DNA from: Bifidobacterium sp.
Lineage (GTDB): Bacteria; Actinomycetota; Actinomycetes; Actinomycetales; Bifidobacteriaceae
Direction of reading: 5' to 3'
DNA: 64,000 nt
Assembly: GCA_024104275.1 (NCBI GenBank)
Contig: JAGGHK010000001.1
Location: 925,798-989,797, forward strand
Below the pieces are notes generated by a model. The model saw nothing but the letters and a program-made list of their open reading frames with translations. It did not search any database and was not told where the DNA came from. Made by a program: the position numbers and the translations under genes. Positions 10,732-63,110 of this stretch are shown here, piece by piece. The first letter of the stretch is position 1. Every line of letters begins with the position of its first letter.

Positions 10732-10761
10732 CGCAACGATGGCACTGGCTTAACAGTTGAG

Positions 10762-10801: not shown

Positions 10802-10809
10802 AAATATTA

Positions 10810-10841: not shown

Positions 10842-10903
10842 CAGTGTATCCAGTATCCATATGGTATGTTACGAATAATGCGCGTCTGTAATATACGAAC
10901 CCG

Positions 10904-11704: not shown

Positions 11705-11706
11705 AC

Positions 11707-12429
11707 TTACGAATCTAGCAACTTCAACGAACGGATGGGACGTTCAAGGTAATATTCTCCCCATTCTTCAACAAATCGCCGTATTTCCGCTTTCAAAGGC
11801 GCACGGTCGAGTACATTCCAGTCCCCCTCAATAAGCGCCTCCATCTGCTCACGACCGTCGAGATCGATGCGCCGCGAATCGGGCGTGTGGTCAGTGGAGC
11901 AGAGGATGCCGCCGGAAGCCACGGAAAAGTAACCGAGGTCGTCGCGTCTGCCGCACACCGCGCAGGAGGAAAGACGTGGGGTCCAGCCGGCCTGGGCCAA
12001 AGCCCGCATCACGTAGGAATCGCTGATCGCTTCGGCCGGGTGGAGTGCTCTGGCCAGCGCCGCCAACGCGGAGATCAGCAGCATATATTGGCGTTGTGCG
12101 GGCTCGTGCTCGGTGGAAACGAGCTTGTCGGTGGTCTCGGCGATGACGTTGGCGGCGGTATAGGCATCGTAATCCACACAGATACGGGCGGCATAGGAGG
12201 AAATGGAAGCGGCCTGGGAGACGACATCGAGCGAACGGCCTTCGGCTATCAGCAAATCGTCGCGCATGAAGGGCTCAAGCCGTCCGCCAAACCTTGATTT
12301 GGTGCGCCTCACACCCTTCGCAACAGCACGCACCTTGCCGTGCTGCTTCGTCATAAGGGTGATGATGCGGTCGGCCTCGCCGAGTTTGACAGTCTTCAGC
12401 ACCACACCCTCGTCACGATACAACGCCAT
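11707..12429 (-). CDS. recO: DNA repair protein RecO
   Basis: Mediator of RecA loading in the RecFOR pathway. 240 residues from the ATG at 12429, which follows GGGGAGGTGAAGCGG; a GTG nine bases upstream overlaps the ribosome site and is less likely. The N-terminal OB fold begins MALYRDEGVVLKTVKLGEADRI and continues GKVRAVAKGVRRTKSRFGGRLEPF. A zinc-like cluster is visible: CAVCGRRDDLGYF and the later GGILCSTDH. Cotranscribed with uppS. Confidence 0.93.
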   Translation of the reverse strand: MALYRDEGVVLKTVKLGEADRIITLMTKQHGKVRAVAKGVRRTKSRFGGRLEPFMRDDLLIAEGRSLDVVSQAASISSYAARICVDYDAYTAANVIAETTDKLVSTEHEPAQRQYMLLISALAALARALHPAEAISDSYVMRALAQAGWTPRLSSCAVCGRRDDLGYFSVASGGILCSTDHTPDSRRIDLDGREQMEALIEGDWNVLDRAPLKAEIRRFVEEWGEYYLERPIRSLKLLDS

Positions 12430-12532
12430 CCGCTTCACCTCCCCGATTCTGATAACAGATACATACTACAGGCACCGTCCGTCGCCATGCCTCGAGCGAG
12501 AGCAGCATTGATCAAGGCTTCTCCCGACGACT

Positions 12533-12626
12533 TTGTGCCCCTAATCGGTCACTAGTGCCCCTTGACGTATGTTTTTACGCTCAAAAATCTACGTTATGGG
12601 GCACTACTGACCGGTTCAGGGCACAA
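12533..12626. repeat. Dispersed palindromic repeat, family 2, copy A
   Basis: About 94 bases. The arms TTGTGCCCCTAATCGGTCACT and AGTGACCGGTTCAGGGCACAA-like sequence pair imperfectly, with an inner GACGTA(T)GTTTTT/AAAAATCTACGT hairpin. The core, ATGGGGCACTACTGACCGGTT, recurs with few changes at 18556-18641 in the same orientation. The stretch 12430-12856 holds no gene otherwise. Confidence 0.65.
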
Positions 12627-12780
12627 CTTATGGACGGTTGGAAGTGGGATTGACCAGAGGAACGAAGCATTTTCCATGGCGGAATTTTGGCCAGTCTACT
12701 GTAAAGGACAACACACAGGGCGGGGTCGGAATTGAGCACTTCCCGAAAAATCATGGATTATTATGCTTTGTGCAAGGAAA

Positions 12781-12810
12781 TGGGCCGGCCCCATGATGGG
12801 AACCGGCCCA
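12781..12810 (-). terminator. Terminator-like hairpin downstream of the adhesin
   Basis: TGGGCCGG at one arm pairs with CCGGCCCA at the other. A smaller hairpin (GTCAGATC...GGTCTGAC, about 12820-12840) lies between it and the adhesin stop. Read on the minus strand it is followed by ATTTCC, so the U-run is weak. Confidence 0.5.
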
Positions 12811-12856
12811 GATTGCATCAGTCAGATCCTACGGTCTGACTATCTCAGTTATTGGC

Positions 12857-14461
12857 TTACTCGTTTTCCTTGCGTTTGCGCAGGGCGAGGGCCAGACCTG
12901 CCAGGGCGGTCAAGGTGAGCGCCAGCGTCGCCGGAGCGGTGACGGCGGCACCGGTGTTGGTCAGGCCGTTCCGGAGCTTCAGGCCCGCCAGTGCGGCGCG
13001 CAGAGCAGCCGCAGCCTGGTCGATGTCGGACTGCGAGGCGTTCGGATCACGGGCAACCGCCTTGTCATGGTTCAGCGCGTCCTGGAACGCCTTCCACGAA
13101 TCCTGCGTGTAGTCGGACTGCCTGTGCCTGCCCGCCTCGGCCTCCGCCGCCTGGCCGATCAGACCGTTCAGGCCCGCCAGACCGTCGGAGCCGTTCGCAC
13201 CATTGGAACCGATCAACTTGAGACCGTTGAGCGCATCCTGCAACGCGCCCATCGCCTGGTCCACGTCGGACTTCGAGGCGTCCTGGTCCTTGGAGACGGA
13301 CTCGGCATGGTCGAGCGCGTCCTGCAACGGCTTCCATGTATCGGGCGTGTAATCCGACTGCTTGTCGCCCTTGGCCTGTTCGATCAGCGCGTTCAGCGCC
13401 GTCTTGTCCGGGGCCCACTTCGCAGTCAGCGCCACATCGGCGGTGACGCCGGTGTCGAAACCATAGTCACGGCCCTGCGAGTCCAGCCAGCCCGCCAGGA
13501 CGTAGCCGTCACGGCTCACCGCACCGGCCGCAGGCCGAGTCGCCTTGTCGCCTTGATTGACCACTTGCATAGCAGGTTGGCCGATGCCGCCAGCTGGGTC
13601 GAAGGTCACGTTCCACGTTTTGATCCATTGAGCATACGTGGTGAAGTCATGATCGGGGGCCACGTTGAAGTCGAGCTTTGAACCACCCGTAGCATCCGTG
13701 TACCATGCATCAAACCGGTAGCCGGTCTTCGTCGGATTCTGCGGCTCGGTAAGTTTGTAGCCATCCGCGACACTCTGGCCAGGAACAGGCGAACCATCTT
13801 GCGAGTCGAACGTGACATTATGATGAGCGTCCGCCCACTTTGCCTTCAACGCCACATCCCCGGTCAACGGCGTGTCGAAATCATACGGCTCGCCGGTGCT
13901 CACCACGACCCATCCCTTGAACACGCTACGCTCGGAATGATGGTCAAAAGGCGGGGTGCCGGGAACATCAGGGTTCGTAGCCTTGAGGCCCTCATCACGC
14001 GTCTGCGTCGCCGGGTGCACGCTGCCGCCGTTCTCGTCGAACGTCACGTCCCACGTCTTGACCCATCCGCCGTACAGGGTGAAATCACTTCTAGGAATGG
14101 TCGTCGTGAAATCGAATGCGTCGGCACCACGCGTAGCCTCCAACAGCAACGACGACGGACGAATCAGATACCATGCGTCAAACCGGTAGCCCGTCCTCGA
14201 CGGTTCGGACGGAGGAGTCAGCAGCGCTCCGTCAACCACCCAACTATCCGTCGAACTGCCGCCGTTCATCGAGTCGAAAGTGATCTTGTGGCGCGCGTCG
14301 CCCCACTTCGCCTTCAGCGTCAGGTCGCCAGTCACCGGCTTGGTGAAGTCATACTTCACGTCGCCGTCGTACCAGCCAAGGAACTTGGCCGACTCGCCAT
14401 GCGAATCACGAGGCACCGTGGTCGGCGCGCCCGGATCGGACGCCGTGCCACCCGTATCCAC
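12857..14461 (-). pseudogene. Sortase-anchored surface protein, C-terminal part after a frameshift
   Basis: Continuation of the adhesin whose N-terminal part is at 14356-17436, one reading frame away. It carries several Listeria-Bacteroides-type (InlB B/Flg_new) repeats, each ending near F-x-G/A-W-Y and D-x-x-L-x-A-K-W. Two FIVAR-like helical modules follow (KQSDYTPDTWKPLQDALDHA and RQSDYTQDSWKAFQDALNH). The C-terminus has the sortase motif LTNTG, a hydrophobic segment (about 24 residues) and RKRKENE. It has no start codon of its own with a ribosome site. If the upstream frame were restored the full protein would be about 1,525 residues, anchored to the cell wall. The lesion lies near 14470-14485. 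Confidence 0.75.
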
Positions 14462-17436
14462 CGTTTCCTGGCGACATCACTGCCACCGGCCGAGTTGAAT
14501 GTCACCACATACGTCTTGATCCAGTGCGCGTACACCGTGGTGTCCTCGGTGATCTCGGTCGTGTCGAAATCGAACTTGGTCGAACCGGTCGCATCCGTAT
14601 ACCAGTTATCGAACCGGTAACCCCCGCGCGTCAGGTTCTTGCCCGCCGCAGGACGTGCCGCCTTGCCGCCATCGGCGACGCCCACTGCGTCCGGTGCGCC
14701 AGAACCGCCTTGGGCGTCGAAGGTCACCGTGTGGTTGGCGGCGGCCCACTTCGCCTTGAGTTTCAGGTCACCGGTCACCGCATCGTTGAAATCGTATTTG
14801 GCCTTGCCGTTGTACCAGCCGCGGAACACCGAGGGGTTGCCGTCACCATCATTCGGAGCCGGGCTCGGTGTGCCCGGATCGGGGACCTTCTTGCCGTCAT
14901 CCACCGTCACCGGAGTCTTCACCGCGCCGCCGCCGTTCGCGTCGAACGTCACCTTGTGAGTCACGACCCAGTGCGCATACGCCGTCACATCGCCGGTCAG
15001 CGCCTGCGAGAAGCTGAACTCGTCGCCCCCCGTGGTGGCCGTATACCAGCCAAGAAAACGATGGCCGGCCCGAGTCGGATCCGCCGGCTTGTCAGGACTC
15101 TTCCCGGCATCCTTCACCTGATCATCCACCGCGGAACCACCGTTCGCCTCGAACCTCACCTTATAGATCCTGACCCACTTCGCCACAATCGTCGTGTCCG
15201 CATTGATGGCCATATCAGAGAAATTGAACTCCGTGTCATACGTGTCATCCGTATACCAGCCATCGAACCGATAGCCGGTCTTCGACGGGTCGGGGGTCGG
15301 TTTTGTGGCATGGCCGCCATCCTTGACACCCTGGTCGACGGGAACATCGGACACCTCGCCCGAACCCACGTCGAAGTGGACCGGGTTCAGCATCTTCACG
15401 TCCACGGACGCGGAAACATTGTTCCGGCCTTCGATGCCATTCGTGCCGGCGGTATCCGTGGCCTTGACCTTGGCCTTCCCTCTCATCGGCACGCTCGCAG
15501 GCACATCCACGCTGAACTTGCCGTCAGTGCCGGAGGTCACCGTCGAAGTCGTCCCGTCCGGCCAGGTGATGTCGACCGTATCGCCGGATTCGGTCGTTCG
15601 GTCGGACTGGGTCTTCTTGTCGCCGCTGGACCACACTGTGCCCTTCAACGTCCCCGCCGAGGAGTCGACCTTCAGATCCTCGAACCCAGGTGCCACTGCA
15701 TCGACCTTGGTCTCGTACGGCTCCGAATCATCGGCATCCTCGTCGGAACCTCTGGTGATCTTGGCGGTGTACGTCACGTCGCCGCCCTTGCCGACCGTAT
15801 CCTTCGGCAGGGGTACCACGGCGCTCCACGTCGTCTCACTGTCCGTCAACGCCACCTCGCCGCTGGACTGCTTGCCATTGTCACTGACAGTAAGCTTGTC
15901 ACCGTTGTGAACCGTGCCCGCGATCGACCCCGTCAGATGCACGCCATCCGTATTCACCGTATGAGCGGTAATGGTCGGCTGCGGCTTGTCGGACCAACGA
16001 GCATATAAGGTGACGTCCCCCATATCATAGGGAATCACGGAAACATTGCCATTCACATCCTTGAGTGGATAATCGGTGCCTTGCATATTCGCCTGGGTGT
16101 TCCAGCCCTTGAACCGGTAACCTGGACGGGTTGCAGCCGTGCAGATTGCGGCATTAGGGACCGCGTAGCCGTCACCGCACCCCGTGACGCTGCTGCTACT
16201 GCCGTTGCCGTTATACTGGGCCGTCGTCAGATACAGCCACTCACCTTTACCATCAAGACCCACAGGACCCGGATCAATACCCTGCCACCCCGGCATCTTG
16301 GCCTTCTGATCTACAGACTCATATCTAGGAGTCGTAGGAATGCAATCGTCCGAAAATGGATAAGCTTGGCAATAATAACTTGGCATATCTTGGTGCCCAT
16401 ACACCGACCATTGGCCCGCAGGATCATTATTCGTTTTTCCGGGAGCGATGTGCGCACCAGAACCTAGCTTCAAACGTTTCAGACTAGTGGTGCCTTGAAA
16501 CATACAAAAATAGGATCGTAAGCGGGCAGGATAACTGTTCCCGGAACCATTACCGTACCACAGCCAAGTCAGCCCGCTCATGTCGAAGCCACTTATGTCC
16601 AGTGACTGCAACGAAGAACAGCCCTGGAACATGCTCGTCATGTCCTTGACCTTGGCCGTCTTCCAGTGCGACAGATCGAAACTGCGGCCGTTCGGCGCGG
16701 CCTGGGGACTTCTGTCGACGTCGCCCACCAGGGCGCTGTCGTTCAAAAACATGTGGTTCATGTCAACGACGGTGCTGGTGTCCCACTTGTTGATGCCCGT
16801 GACCGTGGTCAGATGGGCGAGGTCATGGAACATGTAGCCGATGTGGCTGGCACTGCTCGTGTCGAGGTTCCCCACGTCGGCGGTCTTCAGATTCGGCAGG
16901 AAATAGTTGTCGAAGATGCCCCAGCCGCTCGTCAGCTTGACCGGGTCCCCCGCGTTCTCATCGACCACGAGTCTGGTGACCTGGGTGCTCTTGTACTGGG
17001 AATTGATCGGGTTGCTGCCATCATCTCCGATGGTACCTGTGTCGGGGATGGTCCCCGATTCCAGTTCGAGCACGCAGTCCTGCTGGTCATCGGAAAGATG
17101 GATGTTCCAGTGCAGCGTGCCCCACGTCTGATTAGCCTTCTCCGTGCAGGGCACCGCGTCCCGCGCGCCAACGGAGCCTTGTGCGGTTTCGCCTGAGCCA
17201 GATTTCGGCTTTTGAGGAGAGACTGGAACCGTTCCCGAAGTCGCCGAGCCATTGCCAGACTCACCTTTGGAAGGTGCTTCAATCGGCCAGTCAGCCTTCT
17301 TGTCGGTATCAGCCTGAACGGATTGAGACTGAGTGGTTGCTTTCTCATTGGTCTGCGTATTGGCGGAAGCAGACGGACCGGCCAATCCGACCAACATCGC
17401 CGGAGCCACGAGCGCGGCCGCAACACCCTTGAACAT
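14356..17436 (-). pseudogene. Sortase-anchored BspA-like adhesin, N-terminal part
   Basis: Opens with a signal peptide (MFKGVAAALVAPAMLVGLAG, then PSASA). Residues about 30-110 are Ser/Thr/Gln-rich. Residues about 130-330 contain BspA-type/DUF285 leucine-rich motifs (MFHDLAHLTTVTGINKWDTS, MFQGCSSLQSLDISGFDMS). From about 470 onward are Ig-like and repeated InlB B-type units (TGYRFDGWYTD, HRFLGWYTATTGG). At GGSDVARK the frame fails and the ORF runs for about 27 unrelated residues to a stop; the matching C-terminus is in another frame (12857-14461). A one-base change in GGAAACGG would reunite them. The product would mediate surface contact. The ATG is preceded by GAGGGTAGG. Confidence 0.75.
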
Positions 17437-41152: not shown

Positions 41153-44035
41153 TTATTCGGTGCGCAACGCCGTGGCCGGGTCCTGTTTGGCGGCCTTGCG
41201 AGACGGGATGAGCCCGCCGATCAAGGTGAGGACCACCGACAGGATAATGAGTATTATCGCGCCGGAAAGCGGCAGCGCGGCGTTGACGCGGTTGGTGCCC
41301 ATGAAGTGGTGCATCACCGCGTTGCCAGGCACGATCAGTATCAGCGTGACCACGATGCCTATCACGCCTGCACACAGGCCGATGATGCCCGTCTCGGCGT
41401 TGAAGACCGTGGAGACGTTGTGCTTCGAGGCCCCCATCGCGCGCAGGATGCCGATCTCCTTGGTGCGTTCGAGCACCGAGATGTAGGTGATGATGCCGAT
41501 CATGATCGACGAAACGACCAGCGAGACCGCGACAAAGGCGATCAGGACGTAGGTGATGACGTTGATGATGGTGGTCACCGAGTTCATCATCAGACCCGCG
41601 TAATCGGTGTAGACGATGCGGTCCTTCTTCTTGGCGCCATCGTTGTAGCTCTTGATGGCATCTTCGATCTTGTTTTTCGCCTCGAAACTGTCGGCGTAGA
41701 TCTTGATGGAGCTCGGGGCGTCACGGCCGATGACGCCGAAATCGGCGAGGTTGCCGTTGTAGGTGCCGGTGGAGACGTACTGGTTGTAGATCGAGACCAG
41801 CACGTTCTCGGGGGCCGTGGCGAGGTAGTTGCTGAAGGCCTGTGCCACCTGCTGCTCATCCATGCCGGAGACCGCTTCCTGCGGATTGCTGGCCACGGCG
41901 GCGTTTCCGGCGGCGGCCGCGGCGGCGTTACGTTGCTGGGTGACTTCGGCGGATTGGCCGGAGCTTGCCGCACCCATGCCACCGGGCGCCTGGGTCATCA
42001 GGCTCTTGGCCATGTTCGCTTGGTCGGAGACGGGCAGTGAAGCCACATAAGCCTTGGCGTTGGCGGCCTTGGTCGCGTCGTCGGAAGGCGCGAAGGTCAT
42101 ACCGTTCAAGATGTTATGGCTGGAATCGGCTTTCTGCGCGTTGACGATTTCACTGGATTTGGTGTAGTCGATCAGCGAATTGGTGAGCATGCGCGTATAG
42201 CCGATGCCCGGCGCCAGCGGCGTAGTCTTGGCATTCGCGTCGGCCCGGATCACACCCACGACCTTGAGCTTCACCGCGGCCTGCGAGTCCATGAGCTTGC
42301 CGACCTGATCGGCGTCATTGCCCACATATTTGAAGTGACCATCGGCACCCTTGACATATTGGTCAGCTGCAGGCAAAAGCGTCAGCGACTGGTTCATCGC
42401 CTTCGAATAGTCGATGCGGGAGGTGTTGGTCTTGACTTTCTCACCGCTGTTCAAACGGTTCATCATATCGTTGTAATCAGCGCTCGGGAGCAGGCCAAGC
42501 TCGTAGACCTGGGTCAGCGGGATCTCGTTGTTTTTGTCGAGCACCAGCACCACCTGATCGCTCGATTTGGGCCAGTGGCCCTTGACCACCTGATAGTTAT
42601 CGGTAATCACCGAGCTGATCGGCTGCTTGTCGGCGTGTTCGCCTGGCATGATTTCGGCAAATGCAGACGGTGCCTTGTTGTTGTCGTCCTTGCCGGTGAT
42701 TTTCGATATCTGCATAGATTGCAGACTTCCAAGATCACTGGATGACGAATTGAGTCCGGCGACAATACTCGCTCCGGACTGCGCCGCGACGGAACTACCC
42801 CCTACTTTCACGCCATCGACGTCCACAAGCGTGTCCTTGGAATCGTGGGTGAACACGGAGAATTTGGGGGAATAGGAATATTGGATGCCGACGTCGCCGA
42901 CATACTTGCGCACGTCGTTGCCGGGCTTGTCGAGGTACTGCTTGAAGGGACTCAGGTTGTTGCTGGTGATGCCGTTGGTCACCGATGCCGCGCCCTTGAC
43001 GCTGGAATCGTCGGGGTAGATGCCGTTGCGCGGCTTGGTCTTCTCCTTGGAATCGGCGGCGGCCTGGGCGGTGTCCATGATCTTGTTCATATCGAAGGTC
43101 TGCTCATTGATCTCTATGGGGTACGAGGTCAGTGTCTCCTTCTGGATATCCGCGATATAGCGGTTCACACCGGTGGAAACCGAAAGAATCAGAGCAATAC
43201 CGATAATGCCTATTGAACCGGCGAACGAGGTGAGAATGGTACGGGCCTTCTTGCTTTTGAGGTTGTTGAAGCTCAGCGCGACCGCCGTGGCGAACGACAT
43301 CGAGGCCTTGCCCATCGTGCGATGGACGGCAGGCTTCTCATCAGCCATTTCCTCGGGTTCTACAGGTCTGGAATCACCGCGAATCACACCGTCCTTGAGC
43401 TCGACGATACGGTTGGCGTATTGGTGGGCGAGGTCGGGGTTGTGCGTGACCATGACGACCAGGCGGTCCCTCGCCACCTCTTTGAGCAGGTCCATGATCT
43501 GCACGGAAGTCTCGGAATCGAGCGCGCCCGTCGGCTCATCGGCCAGGACGATGCTCGGATCGTTGACCAGTGCGCGGGCGATGGCGACGCGCTGCATCTG
43601 CCCGCCGGAAAGCTGGTTCGGCAACTTGTTGATGTGCTCGCCCAGCCCGACCTTCTGCAGGGCCTCTTCCGCACGCTTGCGGCGATCGGCGCGCGAGACG
43701 CCGGAGATGGTCAGGGCCAGCTCGACGTTGGAAAGGATGGTCTGGTGCGGGATGAGGTTGTAGCTTTGGAAAACGAAGCCGACCGTATGGTTGCGGTAGG
43801 AATCCCAGTCACGGTCCTTGTATTTCTTAGTCGACGTGCCGTTGATCACGAGGTCGCCGGAATCGTAACGGTCGAGCCCGCCGATGATGTTCAGGAGCGT
43901 GGTCTTGCCAGAGCCGGATGGCCCCAGAATCGCGACGAACTCGTTGTCGCGCAAGGTGAGGCTCACATGGTCCAGCGCCTGCTGGACGAAATCGCCCGTC
44001 TTATACTGCTTGCTGATGTCTTTGATCTGTAGCAC
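41153..44035 (-). CDS. Fused ABC transporter ATPase-permease (MacB/FtsX-like)
   Basis: 960 residues. ATPase domain (1-235) with Walker [15 protein letters not shown], signature [19 protein letters not shown], Walker [15 protein letters not shown] and [12 protein letters not shown] membrane segment at about 262-285 follows, then a long extracytoplasmic region (about 300-810, including [16 protein letters not shown] and an Ala/Gln/Met-rich stretch), and three FtsX-type segments near the C-terminus. MacB-type transporters pump peptides or sense envelope stress. No regulator is adjacent. Self-contained gene with its own terminator. Confidence 0.88.
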
Positions 44036-44185
44036 GAATTCCCTGCCTGCCTAATTGTCGCGTTTCTCGTCGCGTTTCTCGCCACACCAAAACTTAGTTC
44101 TGCTACTCTACCCCAATGCACGGCCTTGGACTCAAAATTTCTTGAGACTTTAGACGATAATGCAAAAACATGTATAATTGATTCT

Positions 44186-44358
44186 GAAGCTTATGCTTCC
44201 GTATCGGCTAATACGTTAGCTCGCCGCCGGCTGGGAATGGCGTCAACCCAGATAGTCCGAGTCGTCGGACGAAAAAAATAACGGCAAGAACGGCAGCGCC
44301 GTAAGCCTTCGCGAGAGGCAGCCAGGAGGGTACCCTACCTGCGGGGCGGTATCCTCCT
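44186..44358 (+). ncRNA. Candidate structured leader with seven consecutive hairpins
   Basis: Seven stems follow each other: 44186-44199 (GAAGC/GCTTC), 44200-44215 (CGTAT/ATACG), 44231-44251 (CTGGG/CCCAG), 44255-44270 (GTCCGA/TCGGAC), 44281-44302 (ACGGC/GCCGT), 44305-44319 (GCCT/AGGC) and 44324-44358 (AGGAGG/CCTCCT). It ends 28 bases before the start of a broken PBECR4-like gene. It matches no riboswitch that I know. The poly-A at 44272-44278 is T-rich on the minus strand, so a minus-strand terminator is an alternative for the hairpin at 44281. Confidence 0.4.
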
Positions 44359-44386
44359 TCACTTATCAATGCAGATAGGAGGTACG

Positions 44387-44987
44387 GTGGCGAATCCTCA
44401 GCATCGTCAACAAGACGTTAAACACATCATTGAAGAATGTGCTGGTAACTATGAGAAAAATCTATTGAACCGATATGTGCTTTTTGGACCAACAGACGGA
44501 AGTCACCCATACGAAACCTTCTTCCCGGCCGAATGTTTCTTTCATTTGTGCGGATTGGAATATAAGAATAAATGACAGAAGGTCTCAGCAAAGAAATTCT
44601 TTGAACTGGCTCTCGAACACCGCATAGACGCAGGGGTTATTTACACCGAAGTACTCGCGTTATACAGCTCTGAAACTCTCAATTCTTCCACGTCTCGTTC
44701 GCATTGATGGATATGCCTCCAAATTTGTTTTCCCGTTCCCCTCTCTCGTCTTCGGCAAAACAAAAGCAGAATTTGCTGTCTATAACGGTGACGTCATTAT
44801 GGGCTTCCGAATGGATTATGCCAAATCAAAAGCGTACGTTCCTTGTACAGCTCTATGCGAACGGATGCCAAAATTACACGCTGAGAAGAACATCGGCTTC
44901 GTTAAGAAAACCCGACCCCAAACGATTAAGTCCAAACCGTGGATACATCCTGATTATGGGGATATAGGCCAGAATGTGTGTCTGTAG
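44387..44987 (+). pseudogene. Broken PBECR4-like nuclease gene
   Basis: GTG start at 44387 after a perfect AGGAGGTACG site. The frame reads VANPQHRQQDVKHIIEECAG, then YVLFGPTDGSHPYETFFPAE and FHLCGLEYKNK, hits a TGA at 44573, then continues in the same frame QKVSAKKFFELALEHRIDAG, VIYTEVLALYSSETL. A one-base shift near 44681 restores SILPRLVRIDGYASKF, VYNGDVIMGFRMDY and NIGFVKKTRPQTIKSKPWIH. The pattern resembles PBECR4 phage-barnase/ColE5/RelE-like domains. Its end lies at the IS boundary. Two lesions make it non-functional as read. It is much more AT-rich than the core genes. Confidence 0.55.
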
Positions 44988-46301
44988 TCGGTTTTGAGGG
45001 GTTGTCCCGTAATGGCCTTGTGACGGTTCGAAAGTGTCGGGCGACACTTTCGGGGGCGGCCGGAATGTGTGTCCGGAACGGGGCCGGGCCGTTGTGGCGT
45101 AAGGGTTCCGGCCTGTTCGAATGTGCCGTGTTCGATGGAGGCATGGAGACACCCCTGTGCGCCGACTGCGGCGGGAGGATGAAGAGGAACGGAACCACCG
45201 GCGCGGGCGGGACCCGGTGGCGGTGCAAGGTGTGCGGGGCGTCGCGCACCCGTTCCTACGACCGTGCCTCCGAGGACCTCCGGAAGGGCCTGGAATGGCT
45301 GTTCTCGGGGAACACGCAGGCCGGCGCGGGCGTGGCCGCGCGCACGCTGCGCCGGGGCGACGGGCTGATGCGGCGGCTGAACCCGCCCGTCCCCGTGGTG
45401 CGGGAACGGCACGACGTGGTGCAGGTCGACGGCATCCGGCTGCACCGGCGGGCCGTGGCCCTGATCGCCGTGGCCGACGGGCACGTCATCGGCTGGCGGG
45501 TCGCGAGGAGCGGGAACGGCCGGGCCTGGATGGAGCTGATGCGCCGCACCGCCCCGCCCGGGGTCCTGGTCTGCGACGGCGGCAACGGCATCGGCAAGGC
45601 CATGAAGGCCGTATGGCCCGGCACCCGGATGCAGCGCTGCCTGTTCCACGTCTGCATGAACATCACCGTCCTGACCGGCAAACGGCCCAAACTGGAGGCC
45701 GGCAGGGAACTGCTGAAACTGGCCCGGCGGCTCAGCCGGGTCAGGGACGCCGGCATGATGGCGGACTGGCTCGCCGCCTACAACCAGCGGGAGCAGGACT
45801 GCAGGGACTTCCTGGACGAGAAGAGCGAATACGCCGACGCCCACCAGCGCCTGGCGCGCGCCCGCGCCATGATCCGCAGGCGGATCGCCGAACACGTCAT
45901 GGACACGTTCATCACCATGGCCGGCGAATGCGAGGAGCCGATACCGCCGACCGACAACCTCGTCGAGTCATGGAACCGGCGGCTGCGCGACATGCTCCGC
46001 AACCACAACGGCCTGCCCCTGGCCCACGGGATCAAGGCCATCCGCCGGTGGTGCCACATGCACACCGGACACCCCGAAAGCCCCGCATGGCTCGCCGCCC
46101 ACGCCATCACCGACCAGCAGGTCGAACGGCTCAACGAGCAGGCATGGGAACACTCGCCCGAAGGCGCGGCACGAACCCTCGGCACGCCAGAGACCCGGGG
46201 CACCGGCATCGACCGGAACGAATTCCACACCCCGACCAGATACCCCAACCAGACCGACTAAAAAACAGGACCGCCAGACACACAATTTGGCCTATAACCC
46301 C
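44958..46301 (+). mobile_element. IS1249-type insertion sequence (IS256 family)
   Basis: Ends are 27-base imperfect inverted repeats (left GGGGATATAGGCCAGAATGT..., right the matching ...ATTTGGCCTATAACCCC) with three mismatches. The transposase fills the interior. I find no target duplication at the flanks: a PBECR4-like pseudogene stops at the left end and a ThiD fragment starts at the right end, which points to a deletion or recombination after insertion. Confidence 0.82.
45143..46261 (+). CDS. IS1249-group transposase
   Basis: 372 residues from the ATG at 45143. The N-terminus is a zinc ribbon, METPLCADCGGRMKRNG then RWRCKVCGASRTRSYD. The DDE region shows VVQVDGIRLHRRAVALIAVA (first Asp), VLVCDGGNGIGKAMKAV (second Asp), CLFHVCMNITVLTGKRPKL and the Glu-bearing PTDNLVESWNRRLRDML. 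The sequence is notably GC-rich (about 65-70%), unlike the AT-rich flanks, showing a different origin. A longer open frame to 44978 exists but overlaps the left repeat. Confidence 0.88.
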   Translation: METPLCADCGGRMKRNGTTGAGGTRWRCKVCGASRTRSYDRASEDLRKGLEWLFSGNTQAGAGVAARTLRRGDGLMRRLNPPVPVVRERHDVVQVDGIRLHRRAVALIAVADGHVIGWRVARSGNGRAWMELMRRTAPPGVLVCDGGNGIGKAMKAVWPGTRMQRCLFHVCMNITVLTGKRPKLEAGRELLKLARRLSRVRDAGMMADWLAAYNQREQDCRDFLDEKSEYADAHQRLARARAMIRRRIAEHVMDTFITMAGECEEPIPPTDNLVESWNRRLRDMLRNHNGLPLAHGIKAIRRWCHMHTGHPESPAWLAAHAITDQQVERLNEQAWEHSPEGAARTLGTPETRGTGIDRNEFHTPTRYPNQTD

Positions 46302-46396
46302 GGAAAGACTATCTCACCGGTTGCATCGCCGCTGGGCTCGACCTCGGAGCCGGATCCGGACCGATGGACCACGCCTGGGCTTGGCGAAACTGTTGA
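46302..46396 (+). pseudogene. ThiD-like kinase C-terminal fragment
   Basis: The frame reads [20 protein letters not shown] then [10 protein letters not shown] and stop. It matches the conserved end of hydroxymethylpyrimidine kinases (AK-D-Y-L-T-x-A-I ... GxGxGPxxH), as does the end of the intact ThiD domain just downstream. It begins exactly at the IS end, so the rest of the gene was lost. Confidence 0.55.
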
Positions 46397-46617
46397 AATG
46401 GTGGGAAGCCGGTGATGATCGCTATTCCTAGAACAAGCCCAGATTCGTAACGGTCAACTCTGCTGATGTCAATAATCTAGCATTATTCTCAAATTATTGA
46501 CACTAACCAACCCCAACTGTCAACAGCCCAAGAACAACCCACAAATACACCAAGCCGTCACGACCGGCGCAGCCCCCTCCAAACCCATCAACCCGACATC
46601 CATTAGGAACATTGCTT

Positions 46618-48552
46618 ATGAATGAACCACGAACCACCGTAAACGCGGCTACCGCCGCCCTGCTTGGCATGCAGGAACGTTATGACAATGAGCTTAATAA
46701 GGCCAAGCCATCCCGCCTGCGCGTGCTTTCCATCGAAGGCTCCGACCCCATCGGTGGGGCGGGCACGATGGCGGATATGAAGGCGTTCACCGCGCAGGGC
46801 GTTTTCGGTTACGCCGCGATGACCAGTGTGCTCGCACAGAACACCCAAGGCGTCACCGACATCGTCAATGTCGAGCCGTCGTTTTTGCTCGCCCAACTCA
46901 AAGCTGTGAGCGACGATGCCGATATCGATGCCGTGAAAATCGGGATGCTCGGCACGCCGGAATTGGTCGACACCGTGCGGGTTTGGCTGGCCGAGCTGCT
47001 CAAGAATTATCAGACTTGCGGCAAGTCCAAACCAACCGTCGTACTCGACCCGGTGATGTACGCCAAGTCCGGCGACCGCCTGCTCACCGCCAAGGCCGAA
47101 CAGGCGCTGACCACGCTGATTCCATTGGCTGACATCATCACGCCGAATGCGATGGAACTCGCGGCGCTCGATGCAATGGGTAATCAGGCGCCATTAGACA
47201 GCGATATTCCAGGCAGGGAAAGCACCGGAAATAACCCTCCGAAAGCCACTGACTCGCCACTTTTGACCAGTCAAATTAGTCACGACGCACCACAGGCTCC
47301 GCATTCCTACAAAGAAATGGAGCGAATGGCGAAATCCGTAGCTTCCCGCTCCGGTGTGGCCGTGTATGCCAAAGGCGGGGCTCTTGCGCTCAATGGCAAC
47401 AAGGAATGTAGCGATATTCTCGCCGTACCGACGATTGCAGAAGGAAACGCTGTGCGCAACACGGCCGATACTTCTGTTGCCAAGCAATCAGGCACACCAA
47501 CCGTTTCCGTAGACAAACCTCAAACCGAAACACCCGCTGGCAGTCCGTCCGATTCCACGACGACTTCGACACCATCGACTTTGCCAGCCCCAACCTCGGT
47601 ACTCAACCAGACACATCAGCTTTCGTCCACGCCAGCTGCCGAATACAAAACCTCGGTATCACTCACCCGCATCGAAAGCGCGGCCGTACCCACACAGAAT
47701 GTGCACGGTACCGGCGACACCTTATCAAGCACGCTGGCAGCCTTGCGCCCACAATGCGACGACTGGGTCGAAACCGCAAAACGCGCCAAGGCGTGGATGA
47801 CTGGTGCCATCGCAGCAGCAGACAGTTTGCATGTTGGTCACGGCCACGGGCCTGTCGATTTCACTTGGCAGCACTCCCCTACGGGATTGGGCTTCACCGA
47901 GGATTATTGGCGCCGTACCGCCGAAATTCGCGAGCGCATTGCTAAGATGCCGTTCATCGAACGCATGCTTGATGGGACGCTGCCACTGGACGATTTCTCG
48001 TTCTACCTGCATCAGGACGATATTTACCTCACCGATTACACATCACTGCTGGCGCTGGCGAGTAGTCGTGCGACTGACCCGCACGAACGCGCGTTCTTCG
48101 CCGATGCCGCCTCGTACGGGCTTGAGGAGGGGCTCACATTCCACCGGCAGTGGTATCGGGAGCACGGTTTCAGCGTCGAGCGTGCGCCGATGAGCGAGAC
48201 CACTGCCGCCTACCTCGGCCACGAACACCGCTTCACCGACACCGGTTCCTACTCTGCGCTGGTCGCCGTGGTGATGCCCTGCTACTGGGTCTATTCCGTC
48301 ATCGGACAGGAAATGGAAGAGCAGGTTCGTGAGCGTCGGCTCGACCTTGACCATCATCCTTACGGCCTGTGGATCCGGATGTATGCCGACCCCGGTTTCG
48401 CTTTGCGCACGCTCGAGGAACTGCTTATCTGCGACAAACTCGCGACCGCAGCCGACATGGCCGATTACCACCAAATGATGGACGCCGCCCTAGGCTCCAC
48501 CGAACACGAATACCGCTTCTTCGATCAGGCGTTGACAAGGAAACGGCAATAG
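46618..48552 (+). CDS. ThiD-TenA fusion (thiamine pyrimidine kinase plus TenA)
   Basis: 644 residues. Residues about 30-195 are the ThiD kinase (LSIEGSDPIGGAGTMADMKA, DAVKIGMLGTPEL, VVLDPVMYAKSGDRLL, DIITPNAMELAAL). A low-complexity insert rich in Thr, Ser and Pro (about 195-355) interrupts it, then VHGTGDTLSSTLAAL and GHGHGPVDFTW complete the kinase. TenA (about 427-644) follows, with YLHQDDIYLTDY and active Cys in VMPCYWVYSVIG. The protein phosphorylates and salvages the HMP pyrimidine moiety of thiamine. ATG is preceded by TTAGGAACATTGCTT. No TPP riboswitch is seen. Confidence 0.86.
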   Translation: MNEPRTTVNAATAALLGMQERYDNELNKAKPSRLRVLSIEGSDPIGGAGTMADMKAFTAQGVFGYAAMTSVLAQNTQGVTDIVNVEPSFLLAQLKAVSDDADIDAVKIGMLGTPELVDTVRVWLAELLKNYQTCGKSKPTVVLDPVMYAKSGDRLLTAKAEQALTTLIPLADIITPNAMELAALDAMGNQAPLDSDIPGRESTGNNPPKATDSPLLTSQISHDAPQAPHSYKEMERMAKSVASRSGVAVYAKGGALALNGNKECSDILAVPTIAEGNAVRNTADTSVAKQSGTPTVSVDKPQTETPAGSPSDSTTTSTPSTLPAPTSVLNQTHQLSSTPAAEYKTSVSLTRIESAAVPTQNVHGTGDTLSSTLAALRPQCDDWVETAKRAKAWMTGAIAAADSLHVGHGHGPVDFTWQHSPTGLGFTEDYWRRTAEIRERIAKMPFIERMLDGTLPLDDFSFYLHQDDIYLTDYTSLLALASSRATDPHERAFFADAASYGLEEGLTFHRQWYREHGFSVERAPMSETTAAYLGHEHRFTDTGSYSALVAVVMPCYWVYSVIGQEMEEQVRERRLDLDHHPYGLWIRMYADPGFALRTLEELLICDKLATAADMADYHQMMDAALGSTEHEYRFFDQALTRKRQ

Positions 48553-48662
48553 ACCTACGCAAAATAGAGTACGAGAATGTCGGCTGACCCCAGATGAACC
48601 GATATTTTTCAACATCACCATCGTGAAAACCTGTACACGCACCCAAGCTTCCGACAAAAAAT

Positions 48663-48692
48663 ACCCAGTCGCTGGTATACGAGCGACTGGGT
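48663..48692 (-). terminator. Terminator between convergent genes, strong on the minus strand
   Basis: ACCCAGTCGCT pairs with AGCGACTGGGT. Read on the minus strand a T-run of six follows (TATTTTTTGTC), making it a good end for the Cas9-derived gene; it may also end the ThiD-TenA transcript. Confidence 0.8.
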
Positions 48693-48758
48693 GCAAATCA
48701 GCGGCATGCAGAGGATGGTTCAACATATTCCGCCCACATACCAACTTGACCGAATATT

Positions 48759-49817
48759 TCAGTCTTTCAAAAGTCCTTGTGCCTGTTCATTCGTTATTTT
48801 CCCGTCCCGCTGCAGACCGGTCAGAACCGTGCGGATAGCGCGCTGCTCATAACCCGTGTCCTGATAGATGTCGAACTGCCCATAGTCCAATCCATGGTCC
48901 TTACAGAACTCCTGTTCCTCAGATGCCGACAAACCCCTAGCAGCAGCTCCCAACGGATAATTATCCCTGATTACCCGTAGTATTCGGGGTGTCTGAGATA
49001 GGGCAATAGCGGCTTTGTCGTTCTTTTCTTTACTCTTTTGATCGGAATCCTGAGAATAGCGATACGTAAGCTTGTCAAACACGAATTTATCTATGAGCCC
49101 CACGTTAAGGAGCATCTTCCAAAAATCTATTCTTTCGGCGAGCAATTGGTCATCAACAAAATTTACCTTATCACTTTTTTGATCATCATGGTCATTGACT
49201 GCCTCACATGTCAAAGCCCGATTTTGCTCGCAACTATCAATGTCCATCGAATGAGCAATGAACAAGCATTGGGGAATGATGTGGTCCTTGGGAAAATTGC
49301 TGGAGAAAGAACCTGATTCTGACATCATGTCTTTTTCTGTATAAATATCTTTCCCAAGCTGTCGGAAATAATAATAATGGTGATCTGTTATCGCGAAACT
49401 TGCATCATCGTCAAGTTTCTGAAGACTTTCCCAAGCTGGGTTGCTAACATGCGACAATCCAACCTTCTTATATTTTTCTTTGAGTTGCCCAGCACTTAAA
49501 GGCTTCTGTAAATCCGCCTCCCCTTCGACGTAAATTAGTTCTGGCTTGGAACCCATTGATTTTACATACCGTGAAACAACATTCATCATTTCAATATTGA
49601 TTACACAAATTTCCGGATTCTCGGAAAGTCTGTTTAAAGCTTTTCTTTTTTTGTCCATATTTTTAGGCGAAAAAAGACTCTTCAGATCGATATCCTCGTA
49701 TTTTTCTTCACCACTGAACAGCAACGGCTTCCCATCCATCGATACGCCGGCATATCCGATACCCATATTGTTGACCGAAAAACCGATGGCATATAGCTGC
49801 GTCTCTGAATCGCTCAT
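48759..49817 (-). CDS. Cas9-derived mini-protein with HNH domain (orphan)
   Basis: 352 residues from the ATG at 49817, which follows GGAGGTGTGGCC. A RuvC-I remnant at 9-23 (YAIGFSVNNMGIGYA) aligns with Cas9 YSIGLDIGTNSVGWA, but the catalytic Asp is Ser14. A pre-RuvC-II helix and RuvC-II follow at 76-101 (SRYVKSMGSKPELIYVEGEA), with Glu98 kept. The HNH domain (about 145-253) aligns with Cas9: YYYFRQLGKDIYTEKDM, DHIIPQ, NRALTCEAVN, KSD, ERIDFWKMLLNVGLID. Asp178, His179 and Asn208 match the Cas9 catalytic set. The REC lobe, RuvC-III and PAM-interacting domain are absent. Residues 260-352 are unrecognised. The gene is AT-rich, with its own terminator. It predicts HNH-only strand cleavage or a non-cleaving binding role. 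Confidence 0.72.
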   Translation of the reverse strand: MSDSETQLYAIGFSVNNMGIGYAGVSMDGKPLLFSGEEKYEDIDLKSLFSPKNMDKKRKALNRLSENPEICVINIEMMNVVSRYVKSMGSKPELIYVEGEADLQKPLSAGQLKEKYKKVGLSHVSNPAWESLQKLDDDASFAITDHHYYYFRQLGKDIYTEKDMMSESGSFSSNFPKDHIIPQCLFIAHSMDIDSCEQNRALTCEAVNDHDDQKSDKVNFVDDQLLAERIDFWKMLLNVGLIDKFVFDKLTYRYSQDSDQKSKEKNDKAAIALSQTPRILRVIRDNYPLGAAARGLSASEEQEFCKDHGLDYGQFDIYQDTGYEQRAIRTVLTGLQRDGKITNEQAQGLLKD

Positions 49818-50059
49818 GGCCACACCTCCATGTGTGAAATAATTGATATTACAACAGTAAGTAATACTACTCTCTTTTTAAGCGTTACATTTAGGCTTAA
49901 TCACGCACTTTGCCGGCAAATCTAACAAACCAGCCAACGAGAATAAACATGCTCGCTGACATTGCATTGCATAGTTGCATCCATTCCATTGTTGAATTCA
50001 CACTGAACTCAACGGTATGAAAACCAAGTAAAACAGACCTGCGATTTCCTACGTTCAGA

Positions 50060-53000
50060 TCAGTCCACCGACTTCAAGGCTTCGAGCATGTCGTGGTGCT
50101 TGAGCTTGGAGTTGACGAACCAGCCCAGCGCGGCGGTGATGAGGCCGACCACGACCAGCGGCACCACGAAGGCCAGCCAGGTGATCGATGGGTCGAACAT
50201 CACGTCGTCGGGCGGGACGGCGGTGATGATGTAGCGATGCAGCCACGCGCCGAAGCCGTAGCCGACGACAATGCCAAGCAGCGAAAGCAGAATCGTTTCG
50301 CGGTAGATGTACATCGTGGTCTCGCCGTTGTAGAAGCCCAGCACCTTGATGGTCGAGAGCTCGCGGACACGCTCGGAAACGTTGAGGTTGGTGAGGTTGT
50401 AGAGGATGACCACGCCGAGCATGGTCGCCACGATGATGAGCACCCACATGATTTGGTTCAGCGCCTTGACGACCACGTCGATCTGGTGCATGAGCGTCGT
50501 GTTCTGCACCACGCCTTGGATGCCGCCGAGCCGCATGAACGAGGCCGCCTGCCGCTTGGTGTTGGCCATGCTGCCGTCCTTGAGCGTGACCATATAAGCG
50601 TTGGTTTGGTAACGTTGCCCAAAGACCGCGCGATAGGCGGATGGGCTCATCACCATGAAGTGGCCAAGGTACATCTCGCAGATGCCGGTGACCCTCACAC
50701 GGTACGTCTTGCCCGCGCCGTTCTGGAAGTCGATGGTGTCTCCCTTCTTGGCGTGTACCAGGTTCGCGAAACGCTCGGAGATCACGGCCCCGTTCGAATC
50801 GAGCGAAAGAGGATGGTGGCCTCGGCGTGTGTTGAGCTTGATGTAATCGTTGAACGTTGAAGTATTCTTCGGCACGAGCATCGTGACGGACTGCTTGTCG
50901 CCGTTGCGTCCGGCGACCTTGGTTATCGATTCGTAATGTACCGGCATCGAGCGCTTGATATCAGACCTCTCGAGCCGACGGTCGATGGCCTTGTTCTGTG
51001 AATCGGTAACATGCGCATTCTCGGCGGCAATGAGATTGTAATGCATCACACCACCGAACTGGTGTTCGTTGATGCCCGAAATCGAGCCCTGCACCGCAAA
51101 TCCAGCGGTCAGCAGCGCCACCGAGCCGCATACGCCGAAAATCGTCATGAACATGCGCTGCTTGTAGCGGAAAATGTTGCGCGCGGTCACTTTGTGGGTG
51201 AAGTTGAGGTGGTTCCAGATGAAGGGTATGCGTTCCAGCAGAATCTTGGAACCGGCGCTCGGCGGCTTGGGCAGCATCAGTGCGGCGGGACGTTCCTTGA
51301 GCTCACGGGCGGCGCTCCATACCGCCGGCACCACGGCGCTGACCATAGCCAGCACGAAAGCCAGCAACGTAACCTGCCAGTGGAATCCGAGATGGATCAC
51401 CGGCACGTTGAAACCGACCTTGTAGGCGTTGTAGACGATCATCGGCAGGAGCGTGTGACCGGCGAAAATGCCGATGATCGCGCCCAGAATCGAGGCGGCG
51501 AAACCGTAGACCACGAATTTCTTCATCACGTCGCGGTCGGAATAGCCCAAGCCTTTGAGGGTGCCGGCGTTGATGCGCTCCTCGTCGACGAACCGGGTCA
51601 TCGTGGTGAACGTGACCAGCGCCGCGACCAGATACATGAAGTAGGGGAAGATGTGCGAGAGCGAGTCGACGATTACGGAAATCGAATCGTAGATCTTGTA
51701 GCCGTCCGAGCCCGGCGTCTCGCGCTTGGAATCGACGGAATAGACCGGGTCATCCACAGCGTCCAACATCGCGGTGGCATCGTTGAGCTTGTGTTCGGCG
51801 TCCTTGATCTTCTGTTGCGCACCGGGCTCGGCCTGATCGAGCTGCGCCTTTTTGGTGTTGTATTCGTTGGTTTTATCGGTGAGCTGCTGCTGGGCGCCAT
51901 CAATCTGAGCCTGTGCCTGCTGCTGTTTGACGGCAAGTTGTTGTTGCGATTGCTGGACTTGAGCTTTGGCTTGCGCTAATTGGGCTGCAGCCTGGTCAAG
52001 CTGGGTTTTGGCTGTGGCAAGCTGCTGCTGTTTCTGGGCAAGTTGGGCGTTTCCGGCATCGGCTTGGGCACGTTTGGCGTTGAGTTGTGCCTGTGCCGCT
52101 TGGATTTGGGCAACACCCGGATTGTAGGTTCCGTTCATAAAAGCGTCACGGCCCTGCGTTGCCTCCGCCAACTTTTGTGCAAGCACTTGCGCTTGGGCTT
52201 GAAGCTGCTGCAATTGTGCATTGAGCTGGTTGAGCTGCGCCTGTAAAGCATCGTGCGCCGGACCGGAAAGCGATGGAAGCTGGGCATTGCCGGCAGCAAT
52301 CTGCGCCTGCACTGCGGCAATTCCCTGATTCACGCTCTGTTGTGTGGCCACGACTTGGGCCACCGCGTCATCGGCCTGTTTCTTTCCTACCGCAAGTTTG
52401 GCGGAATTGGCATCGATCTGCGATTGTCCGGCATTGATCTGCGTGTAAGCATTGTTAATCTGTTGTGAAGCCGCACCAACCTGCGCAGCTCCGGCATCAT
52501 ACTGCTGCTTGTTCGCGTTGTATTCGCTCTGCCCCGAAGCGATCTTGGTCTGCGCCGCGGCAATCTGCTGTTGTGCCGAAGCGACTTGCGTGGCCAATTG
52601 CTGCCGGGAAGTAGCCAACTGCTGATTGCCGTTGTCAAGTTGCGCCTTGCCGTCGGTCAATTGCTGCCGTGCGCTGGCGAGCTGTTGTTTGGCGTCGCTG
52701 ACCTGCTGCCGCCCGGAGTCGATTTGCGGCTTGACCTGTTTTTCAATGGCTTGCCGTCGCGCTTTCGGCCGTCCGGCGAGAATCTTGTCGAGTGCCTTCT
52801 TATGCACCTGCAACGCGTCATTATATTTCAATGAATAATGGTCACGCATATGATCAAGGTCAGAGTAAGTCAGCCGTGCAATTATGTAATCGCCGGATTT
52901 GAACGCGCCGGGCGTAACCACTGCGTAACCATCCAACGAGCCGGAACCAGAGGTCGAGGGCCCCATATTCACCGAGCTCAGGATTTCGGTGGAATCGGCA

Positions 53001-60499: not shown

Positions 60500-60547
60500 G
60501 GTTGCCAAAAGAAACCATGAAAATACACACAGTATCTTTTGGCAACC
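60500..60547. repeat. 13-bp inverted repeat upstream of the copA terminator
   Basis: GGTTGCCAAAAGA pairs exactly with TCTTTTGGCAACC across a 22-base spacer. No T-run of significance follows. It may be an operator for the haem cluster or an unknown structured site. Confidence 0.5.
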
Positions 60548-60577
60548 ATAGGTTAGTGTGGGCACTCAATACGAAAA

Positions 60578-60614
60578 AGGCTGTGACCATCCACGAATCA
60601 GATGGCCACAGCCT
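60578..60614 (-). terminator. Terminator of the copA operon
   Basis: AGGCTGTGACCATC pairs with GATGGCCACAGCCT. On the minus strand it is followed by TTTTTCGTATT, 24 bases after the copA stop. Confidence 0.85.
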
Positions 60615-60638
60615 AAATTTATAACGATTACCTAAGCG

Positions 60639-63110
60639 TCACGCCGCGTATTTGGCGGGGTCGGCGGCGAAGGACTTGGCGCAGTTGTCGCTGCAGAAGT
60701 AGTAGGTCTTGCCGTTGTATTCCTGGCTGCCGGCGGCAGTCTTCGGATCGATCATCATTCCGCAGACCGGGTCCTTGACGGTGCTGGCGTTGCCGTTCAT
60801 GTTCATATCCATAGTGGTTCCTTCTTTCGCTTTCGCAGGTTGGTTGTGGTTGTTGTTGTTCGGCGCATCCGAAGACGCATCAACAGATTTTTGCGCAGGT
60901 GCCGCTTTCGGGGCTTGACCATCGTTCGCGGCGTCTTTGAGCTCGACGTGACGTTCACGCAGCTTGAAGGTGAAACGTCGCGGCTTAACGGTGGCTGGGT
61001 TGAACGAGCGCAGACGATTCGCGTTCAAGACCACGGAAAGCGAGGAGAACGCCATGGCGGCGCCGGCGATCATCGGGTTAAGCATGATGTGCCAGAACGG
61101 GTAAAGAATGCCGGCGGCGATCGGGATGCCGATGCCGTTGTAGCCGAAGGCGAAGCCCAAGTTCTGCTTGATGTTGCGCATGGCGGCACGCGACAGGTCG
61201 ATGGCGGTCACCAAACCGGTGAGACTACCGGAAACCAGTGTGATGTCCGAGGACTCGATGGCCACGTCGGTCCCGGTGCCGATGGCGAATCCGACATCCG
61301 CGGCCGCAAGCGCAGGGGCGTCGTTGATGCCGTCGCCGACCATACCGACCATGTGGCCCTCGTTCTGCAACCGCACGATTTCCTCGGCTTTGCGTTCCGG
61401 ACGCACACCCGCGATGACTCGGTCTACGCCCACTTCGTTGGCCATGGCGGTTGCGGTCGTCTTGTTGTCGCCGGTCAGCATAACCACTTGCAAGCCACGT
61501 TCACGAAGCGCGGCAATCGCCTTGGCGGAATCCGGCTTGACGGTGTCCGCCACCGCCAGCACGGCGACCAGCTTGCCATCGACAGCAGCCAGAATCGGGG
61601 TCTTGCCTTTTTGGGCATAGTTCGAGAACGTCGTTTTGACATCGTCCGAAGCCAACACATCGATATCGCGGCTTTTCATCAGTTCGGCATTGCCGACGAC
61701 GACATCATGACCGCCGACTTTGGTCACTACCCCGCTGCCCGGCACAGCCTCGAACGAATCGGCCGCTGGTACGGTCAACCCCCGATGATGCACACCTTTG
61801 ACGATGGCCTGAGCCAGCGGATGTTCCGAGACCTGTTCGGCTCCGGCGATCAACGAGAGCAAATCACCCTGTTGCGTTCGCACGTTTGCGTTGTCGTTTA
61901 CCTTGTCGTTCCCGGTATCATCCACCCAACCGATGTCGGTGAGTTCGGGCTTGCCACGGGTAATGGTGCCGGTCTTGTCGAACACGACGGTATCGACGTC
62001 ACGCGCGGTCTGCAGCGCTTCGGCGGAACGAATGAGCACACCGTATCGCGCGGCCTTGCCGGTCGAAATCGTCACCGAAAGCGGGGTGGCGATACCCAGC
62101 GCGCACGGGCAGGCGATGACCAAAACGGCCACGGCCGACACGAGTCCGTATAGCCCTTGCGGCGCGGGACCGAAGACCCACCAGATGACGAACGTCCAGA
62201 TGACGACGAGGATGACACCCGGCACGAAATAGCCGGAGATCTTGTCGGCGAGTTTCTGAATCGGCGCCTTCGAGGTCTGAGCCGTGCGCACCAGCTTGAT
62301 GATCTGCGCGAGCACCGTGTCTCGCCCGACCTTGGTGGCACGATACCGCAACGTTCCATTGCCGTTGACGGTGGCACCAGTGACGGTATCGCCCTCACCC
62401 TTGGCAACCGGCATGGATTCACCGGTGATCATGGATTCGTCGATGGAGGTCTGGCCGGAAATCACCTTGCCGTCAACCGGCAACTGCTCCCCCGGCTTGA
62501 TGACGACGATATCGCCCACCTGAACCTGGTCGGCGTTGATGTCGAGCTCCTTGCCATCGCGCACCACATGTGCGGTTTTCGGCGTCAAATTAATCAAAGC
62601 CCGAATCGATTCTCCAGTACCAAGACGCGCGTGCGCCTCAAGCAACTGCCCCAAAAGCATCAAGGTGATAATGGTGCCGACGGATTCGTAATACGGATCG
62701 CGTGCGCTTGGAGGCAGGATGCCCGGGGCAACAGTCACCACAACGCTATACGCATACGATGCGGCGGTTCCCAACGCCACCAGCGAGTTCATCTCCGGGG
62801 CGCGGTGCGCGAGCGCCAACCAGCCGGTGCGGTGGATAGGCCAGCCGGAATAGAACATGACCGGCGTGATGAACACGAACTCCACCCATGGATTGGTGAA
62901 GAAATCGATGACGCCCATGGGTACGAACGCCTTGAGCCACATGTGGAACATGGCGAAAACGAACACCGGAATCGTCAGCACCGCGGCGACGATAAGACGC
63001 CGGTCGAGCGCTTTGATCTCGCTTTTGCGCACGGCATCAGGGTCATCCTCCTGGCCTTGCTCCTGACTTGCAACGGGTTGCGTTGCCGCCTGCTTGCTGA
63101 CTTGGCTCAT
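60639..63110 (-). CDS. copA: Copper-translocating P1B-type ATPase with C-terminal YHS domain
   Basis: 823 residues from the ATG at 63110, which follows CGGAGCAAGCA. Eight membrane segments; TGES loop MITGESMPV, metal site [14 protein letters not shown] (CPC), phosphorylation [14 protein letters not shown] motif [12 protein letters not shown], and [11 protein letters not shown]. Family-typical N-terminal CxxC domains are absent; a YHS domain ([20 protein letters not shown], then [12 protein letters not shown]) is at the C-terminus (about 767-823). Inside the frame, ATG at 60812 follows AGAAGGAACCACT, so the YHS piece may also be made alone. Exports copper. Downstream of cupredoxin in one operon. 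Confidence 0.9.

Follow-up and report, generated by a model that had tools for sequence, protein, structure and literature searches.

An orphan Cas9-derived HNH protein without a recognition lobe in a Bifidobacterium genome, a possible guide-independent nuclease

This report concerns a single gene of 352 codons in a Bifidobacterium sp. genome (assembly GCA_024104275.1), whose product is a small derivative of Cas9. The whole stretch analyzed, here called the window, comprises 64,000 nucleotides of contig JAGGHK010000001.1 (positions 925,798 to 989,797), and coordinates below are those of the window unless another record is named. The gene lies on the minus strand at 48759..49817, with its ATG at 49817 and its stop at 48759. 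The encoded protein has no recognition (REC) lobe, its RuvC domain is degenerate and its HNH domain is retained.

The gene and its site

The reading frame is open throughout its 352 codons, and a stop-free run of this length is expected by chance with a probability of about 6e-8, as calculated from the base composition of the gene itself at each codon position. The plus-strand reading of the same interval has 12 stops in frame 1, and codon position 2 has the lowest G+C in all three gene segments examined. An upstream GTG is an alternative start, giving 354 codons. On the same minus strand the sequence GGAGGTG at 49823..49829, read directly, resembles a Shine-Dalgarno site and stands 5 bases ahead of the ATG, and a hairpin resembling an intrinsic terminator (11-pair stem, loop of 8, T-run) lies 3′ of the stop at 48663..48692. 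The ribosome site, intact frame and own terminator described in an initial annotation of this DNA are thus all present, and the gene may be expressed.

The gene is the sole gene of an extra segment of 1507 bases (48553..50059) between a thiD-tenA gene and an ABC permease gene. The spacing between these two neighbours is about 1.5 kb here, and in five related species it was found by blastn to be 27, 266, 122, 124 and 112 bases. Altogether 11 relatives were compared, in 5 of which thiD-tenA stands beside the permease; the other 6 are uninformative on the site because thiD-tenA is absent from their stretch, and the query protein has no match in any of the 11. The coding part of the insert has 43% G+C against 56–59% in the neighbouring host genes, in agreement with the AT-richness already remarked. 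The insert is single-copy in the genome, its only extra match being that of the terminator hairpin with itself, and a search for mobile-element ends found no direct repeat of more than 8 bases shared by its two edges. The gene had been placed in an island with an insertion sequence (IS) and broken genes, a description which was not confirmed. The insert consists of one gene, flanked on either side by a conserved gene with an open frame, and the IS is 2.3 kb from the insert, beyond thiD-tenA, and about 2.5 kb from the Cas9 derivative.

Domain architecture and relation to Cas9

The nuclease core of Cas9 is present in colinear order, as RuvC-I, RuvC-II, HNH, linker 2 and most of RuvC-III, all on the minus strand. 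The RuvC-I hairpin (49719..49796, residues 8–33, with model strands at 9–16 and 19–26) carries Ser14 in place of the catalytic Asp; when residues 1–75 were shuffled, its score was reached by 0 of 1000 shuffles with a near-clade profile and by 1 of 1000 with a broad profile. The RuvC-II helix and strand follow (49503..49652, residues 56–105) with Glu98 retained, and then the HNH domain (49152..49385, residues 145–222) with Asp178, His179, Asn199 and Asn208. Linker 2 and the degenerate RuvC-III occupy 48762..49151 (residues 223–352), where the conserved His-His pair has become Gly322-Tyr323 and the conserved Asp has become Arg326. Three of the four RuvC catalytic residues are replaced in this way, Glu98 being kept; which histidine of the RuvC-III pair is the catalytic one is our assumption. 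The retained Asp178, His179 and Asn208 correspond to D839, H840 and N863 of SpCas9, given as the HNH catalytic triad in a published study (PMC6706240). The alignment bears out the initial annotation on these three residues, on Glu98 and on the replacement by Ser14.

Neither the alignment nor the predicted model shows a REC lobe, a bridge helix that can be recognised or the PAM (protospacer-adjacent motif)-interacting (PI) end; for the REC lobe and the PI domain this absence had been claimed already, and no remnants of REC or PI were found within the 1507-base insert. Two further statements, that RuvC-III is missing and that residues 260–352 resemble nothing, did not stand. The BLAST match to Cas9 reaches residue 317, and the predicted structure aligns with SpCas9 from residue 3 to about residue 1085–1089, through the last of the 352 residues; what was lost is the catalytic pair of RuvC-III. 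By sequence, the tail (residues 246–352) taken alone has weak support, its score being reached by 9 of 1000 shuffles with the near-clade profile and by 287 of 1000 with the broad one. The C-terminal 98 residues were also considered as a separate domain, and this was rejected, with no match in PHROGs, PADLOC, Pfam, phages or viral_contigs.

The Cas9 origin of the 352-residue protein is close to certain. The Cas9 model TIGR01865 matches residues 57–274 (E 6.9e-15; 54.4 bits, under the model cut-off of 100 bits), the best of the PADLOC Cas9 models reaches E 3.8e-18, 38 Cas9 sequences of the PDB match with E from 3.1e-8 to 3.2e-5, and our own profile built from Cas9s gives 82 bits over residues 55–263. 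The derivation from Cas9 proposed at the outset is thereby upheld well above chance, and the profile match on which it was to be judged was obtained. The protein's nearest relatives, at 27–31% identity over more than 220 columns, are Cas9s of full length and II-A size from Bifidobacteriaceae and Leuconostoc: 28.3% over 251 aligned columns for Bifidobacterium merycicum (1401 codons), 27.4% over 226 for B. choloepi (1418 codons) and 30.6% over 271 for Leuconostoc inhae (1365 codons). Over about 100 HNH columns the highest identity rises up to 38%. In a tree of 44 rows the end branch of the query is saturated at 10, so that its placement beside Bifidobacteriaceae Cas9s is indicative only.

Homologues were searched at several levels. 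Among 112 genomes of the genus 3 match, namely the own copy and two Cas9 genes of full length, with 1401 and 1418 codons; among 189 genomes of the family 9 match, the eight besides the own copy having frames of 1401–1510 codons; and in a class sample of 394 genomes the own copy is the single match. The protein search returned 0 relatives in genome_contigs and 0 in viral_contigs, and the search with alignment A2 gave 2 relatives in viral_contigs and, in genome_contigs, the best 80 of 167, headed by the Leuconostoc inhae Cas9. Of these 82 loci, 77 have an open frame of at least 900 codons, and of the 5 shorter ones, 4 have the remaining Cas9 in other frames and 1, on a Mycoplasmataceae contig, has it beyond in-frame stops. 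Matches to the Cas9 family model occur in 28 of the 112 genus genomes, 26 of them above cut-off; two of the frames, of 746 and 755 codons, reach contig ends, and in one genome the Cas9 is divided between a frame of 822 codons and one of 347.

Searched with the protein, the phage records yielded 3 matches and the plasmid records 4, with 25–28% identity over about half of the query, none covering 80% of it and their frames unchecked; the search at DNA level gave no match in these records, and viral predicted structures gave 0 matches at E 0.001 or better. One unannotated phage record from human faeces, MT835488.1, has a weak Cas9-HNH-like match at its positions 60545–61072 (25% identity, E 0.01).

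No second copy or short homologue with the 352-residue layout was found in the genome, contig, phage and plasmid sets searched. A conserved small family was accordingly rejected: wherever the frame of a homologue was checked, it was either a full-length Cas9 or a Cas9 broken up by stops or frameshifts. A recent origin by deletion from any sampled cas9 was rejected too, since the homologues aligned over more than 200 columns share no more than 31% identity. It had been foreseen that all homologues might be full-length Cas9 with this copy explained by a deletion in one strain; the first half of this describes the checked frames, and for the second half no relative close enough to be the source of a recent deletion was found among the sequences sampled.

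As for a CRISPR context, no array was found in 44000–50200, Rfam gave nothing at gathering score in 44000–50500, and one known bifidobacterial repeat searched in the window had no match. The assembly, which is 94.85% complete, has no other Cas9 match, which answers the earlier suggestion to look for a full cas9 elsewhere. A single Cas1 match is present in the assembly, some 320 kb from the gene, in a CRISPR-Cas locus of type I-G-like layout (L167, G000:C11:644000-660000, 7567–15667) with a Cas4-Cas1-like frame, a large helicase gene and 26 repeats at a spacing of about 71 bases; apart from Cas1, a family match, the gene names and the subtype are our assumption from the layout. The orphan status claimed for the gene is supported by these results. 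The accompanying statement that no cas1, cas2, sequence like a trans-activating CRISPR RNA (tracrRNA) or array is visible holds for the array and for cas1 nearby; it was followed up for tracrRNA through Rfam only, and cas2 was not searched.

Uneven conservation and its interpretation

Retention of conserved positions was counted at columns that are at least 90% conserved among the Cas9 rows of alignment A4, which consists of 43 Cas9 cores (filtered by motif and similarity from 76 full frames less 2 viral ones) and 14 RuvC-I pieces. The protein keeps 15 of 20 such columns in HNH, and 2 of 7 in RuvC-I (columns from the 14 short rows, which have no leave-one-out value), 2 of 7 in RuvC-II, 4 of 14 in linker 2, 0 of 2 in pre-RuvC-III and 1 of 7 in RuvC-III. 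HNH thus stands at 15/20 against 9/37 elsewhere (one-sided Fisher p 0.0003), and the bias persists whichever of four thresholds or two reference sets is used, with p between 0.0003 and 0.005. When each of the 43 real Cas9s was left out in turn, the lowest retention was 0.85 for HNH and 1.0 for RuvC-III. As aligned here, erosion appears to be mainly outside HNH; a fresh deletion would be expected to be Cas9-like throughout, and an old neutral relic would be expected to be eroded throughout.

An origin by loss, not from an ancestral small form, is likely on comparison of the sequences, because the nearest relatives are full-length Cas9s and the RuvC is dead. A Cas9 of II-A kind would have lost its REC lobe, leaving about 20 residues between RuvC-I and the RuvC-II region, and also everything after RuvC-III, including the PI domain. 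The leftover core would then have evolved on, its RuvC losing three of four catalytic residues and its HNH holding the Asp-His-Asn set, and the gene would have entered the bifidobacterium as a single gene at an intergenic spot. RuvC would now serve as scaffold only, and the protein may be a small metal-dependent HNH nuclease (a nickase) without need for a guide RNA. The balance leans slightly towards the HNH having been retained for a purpose. We favour tentatively, at somewhat less than an even chance, the reading of a RuvC-dead Cas9 derivative without REC, kept as a putative small guide-independent HNH nuclease. Putative guide-free DNA cutting is our best guess at its activity, and the guide-independent nickase proposed in the initial annotation is possible. 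The fuller account, of a Cas9 evolved into a free-standing guide-free HNH enzyme that has shed its readers of RNA and PAM, uses RuvC as scaffold and has its HNH under selection, we consider unlikely.

Several points weigh against the favoured reading. The HNH of Cas9 is normally active only after its placement by the guide-target duplex. Simulations of the isolated SpCas9 HNH are reported to favour the N863-OUT form (PMC6706240); on both grounds guide-free nuclease activity is uncertain. The HNH also differs from that of the aligned Cas9s by two insertions, one of 6 residues and one of 3. The Pfam model HNH_4 was not reported for the protein at E up to 10, where HMMER filters may drop weak matches; the corresponding piece of the B. 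merycicum Cas9 scores 61 bits with this model. Lowest leave-one-out retention outside HNH falls to 0.62 in RuvC-II, 0.73 in linker 2 and 0.5 in pre-RuvC-III; part of the HNH contrast is hence general to Cas9, since real Cas9s too vary more outside HNH, and misalignment of the poorly conserved RuvC parts could exaggerate it further. Purifying selection is not directly measurable, because the sequence is single among everything searched, and no sigma-70-like promoter was found upstream of the gene on the minus strand.

Almost as likely as the guide-free nuclease is a functionless relic, in which an unsampled and already divergent cas9 lost REC and PI by deletion and left a frame that may or may not be translated; taken by itself this seems to us a serious though minority prospect. 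It would suit the singleton status (only Cas9 frames of 1401–1510 codons besides the own copy among the 112 genus, 189 family and 394 class genomes), the loss of three RuvC catalytic residues and of 28 of the 37 conserved columns outside HNH, and the insertions in HNH. Against it stand the intact frame, Shine-Dalgarno site and terminator, the HNH-biased retention and an insert free of REC or PI debris; after a fresh deletion the RuvC residues would be expected in place, and in an old neutral relic stops would be expected. The HNH insertions adjoin catalytic positions, and together with the dead RuvC and the unreached HNH_4 model they would also fit a DNA-binding or regulatory protein on a Cas9 fold whose HNH no longer cuts; this is improbable, as the three catalytic residues of HNH have all survived, in contrast to the majority of conserved positions in the rest of the protein.

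The protein might instead be an RNA-guided nickase comparable in size to IscB, served by a guide RNA of its own that went unrecognised; the IscB-like layout without REC is in favour of this, and 242 non-coding bases upstream are available for such an RNA. Folding of these bases is not better than that of their shuffled versions, of which 53 of 200 do equally well or better (z −0.56); the 206 bases downstream have a slight advantage (z −1.65; equalled or beaten by 14 of 200 shuffles) but include the terminator hairpin. The sole two Rfam matches nearby are sub-gathering and belong to other families, and PLMP, a C-terminal target-reading domain and a recognisable bridge helix are all missing, so we regard this reading as very unlikely. 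Least probable of all is a decoy or partner that blocks or modulates a Cas9, as the initial annotation had suggested for a Cas9 elsewhere. The protein has its fold in common with Cas9, but it lacks the REC lobe, the bridge helix and PI, the genome's CRISPR-Cas locus is type I-G-like and the assembly, about 95% complete, contains no other Cas9 match.

Known systems and neighbouring genes

The protein is like a II-A Cas9 in the colinear order of RuvC-I, RuvC-II, HNH, linker 2 and RuvC-III and in the HNH catalytic residues, and unlike it in its 352 residues, in lacking the REC lobe, the PAM-interacting domain and any recognisable bridge helix, in the three of four RuvC catalytic residues replaced and in having no CRISPR array nearby. 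The engineered Cas9 D10A nickase also has an inactive RuvC with intact HNH residues, a state predicted here for a natural protein without guide or target recognition. IsrB is a RuvC nickase without HNH, unlike the present protein with its HNH and degenerate RuvC. IscB, an OMEGA nuclease and likely ancestor of Cas9, has a RuvC split around HNH and no REC lobe (PMC9640706). The Cas9 derivative resembles it in size, in the HNH-split RuvC and in the lack of REC; it differs in having no PLMP domain and just 8 residues ahead of the RuvC-I strand, a RuvC predicted to be inactive, a sequence nearest to Cas9 and no RNA partner found. We read it as a reduced Cas9 rather than as an ancestral form. In the literature covered, which excluded subscription journals and preprints, no description of a naturally occurring Cas9 remnant without REC was found.

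Cas9 is understood to have grown from IscB by gain of the recognition lobe. If the fuller account above, which we consider unlikely, is true, the gene would represent a new small nuclease lineage formed in the direction opposite to the path from IscB to Cas9. Natural loss of REC and PAM readers with death of RuvC and retention of HNH would reveal what stays useful in a guide-free Cas9, and would offer a natural minimal HNH nickase core for study; if the gene is a relic only, it would be a record of cas9 decay.

The IS mentioned above lies at 44958–46301, encodes a transposase of Mutator/MULE type (69% G+C) and is bounded by 27-base terminal inverted repeats (89% complementary). In the compared stretches L073, L074, L075, L078 and L079 a second, more distant ThiD-like stretch stands beside the thiD-tenA fusion, with 41–46% identity (37% in L075). 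In L080 a short gene (positions 5987–6646 of that stretch), which by eye resembles an NAD(P)-binding reductase, separates the permease from the next ABC transporter, so the genes adjoining the permease vary among species.
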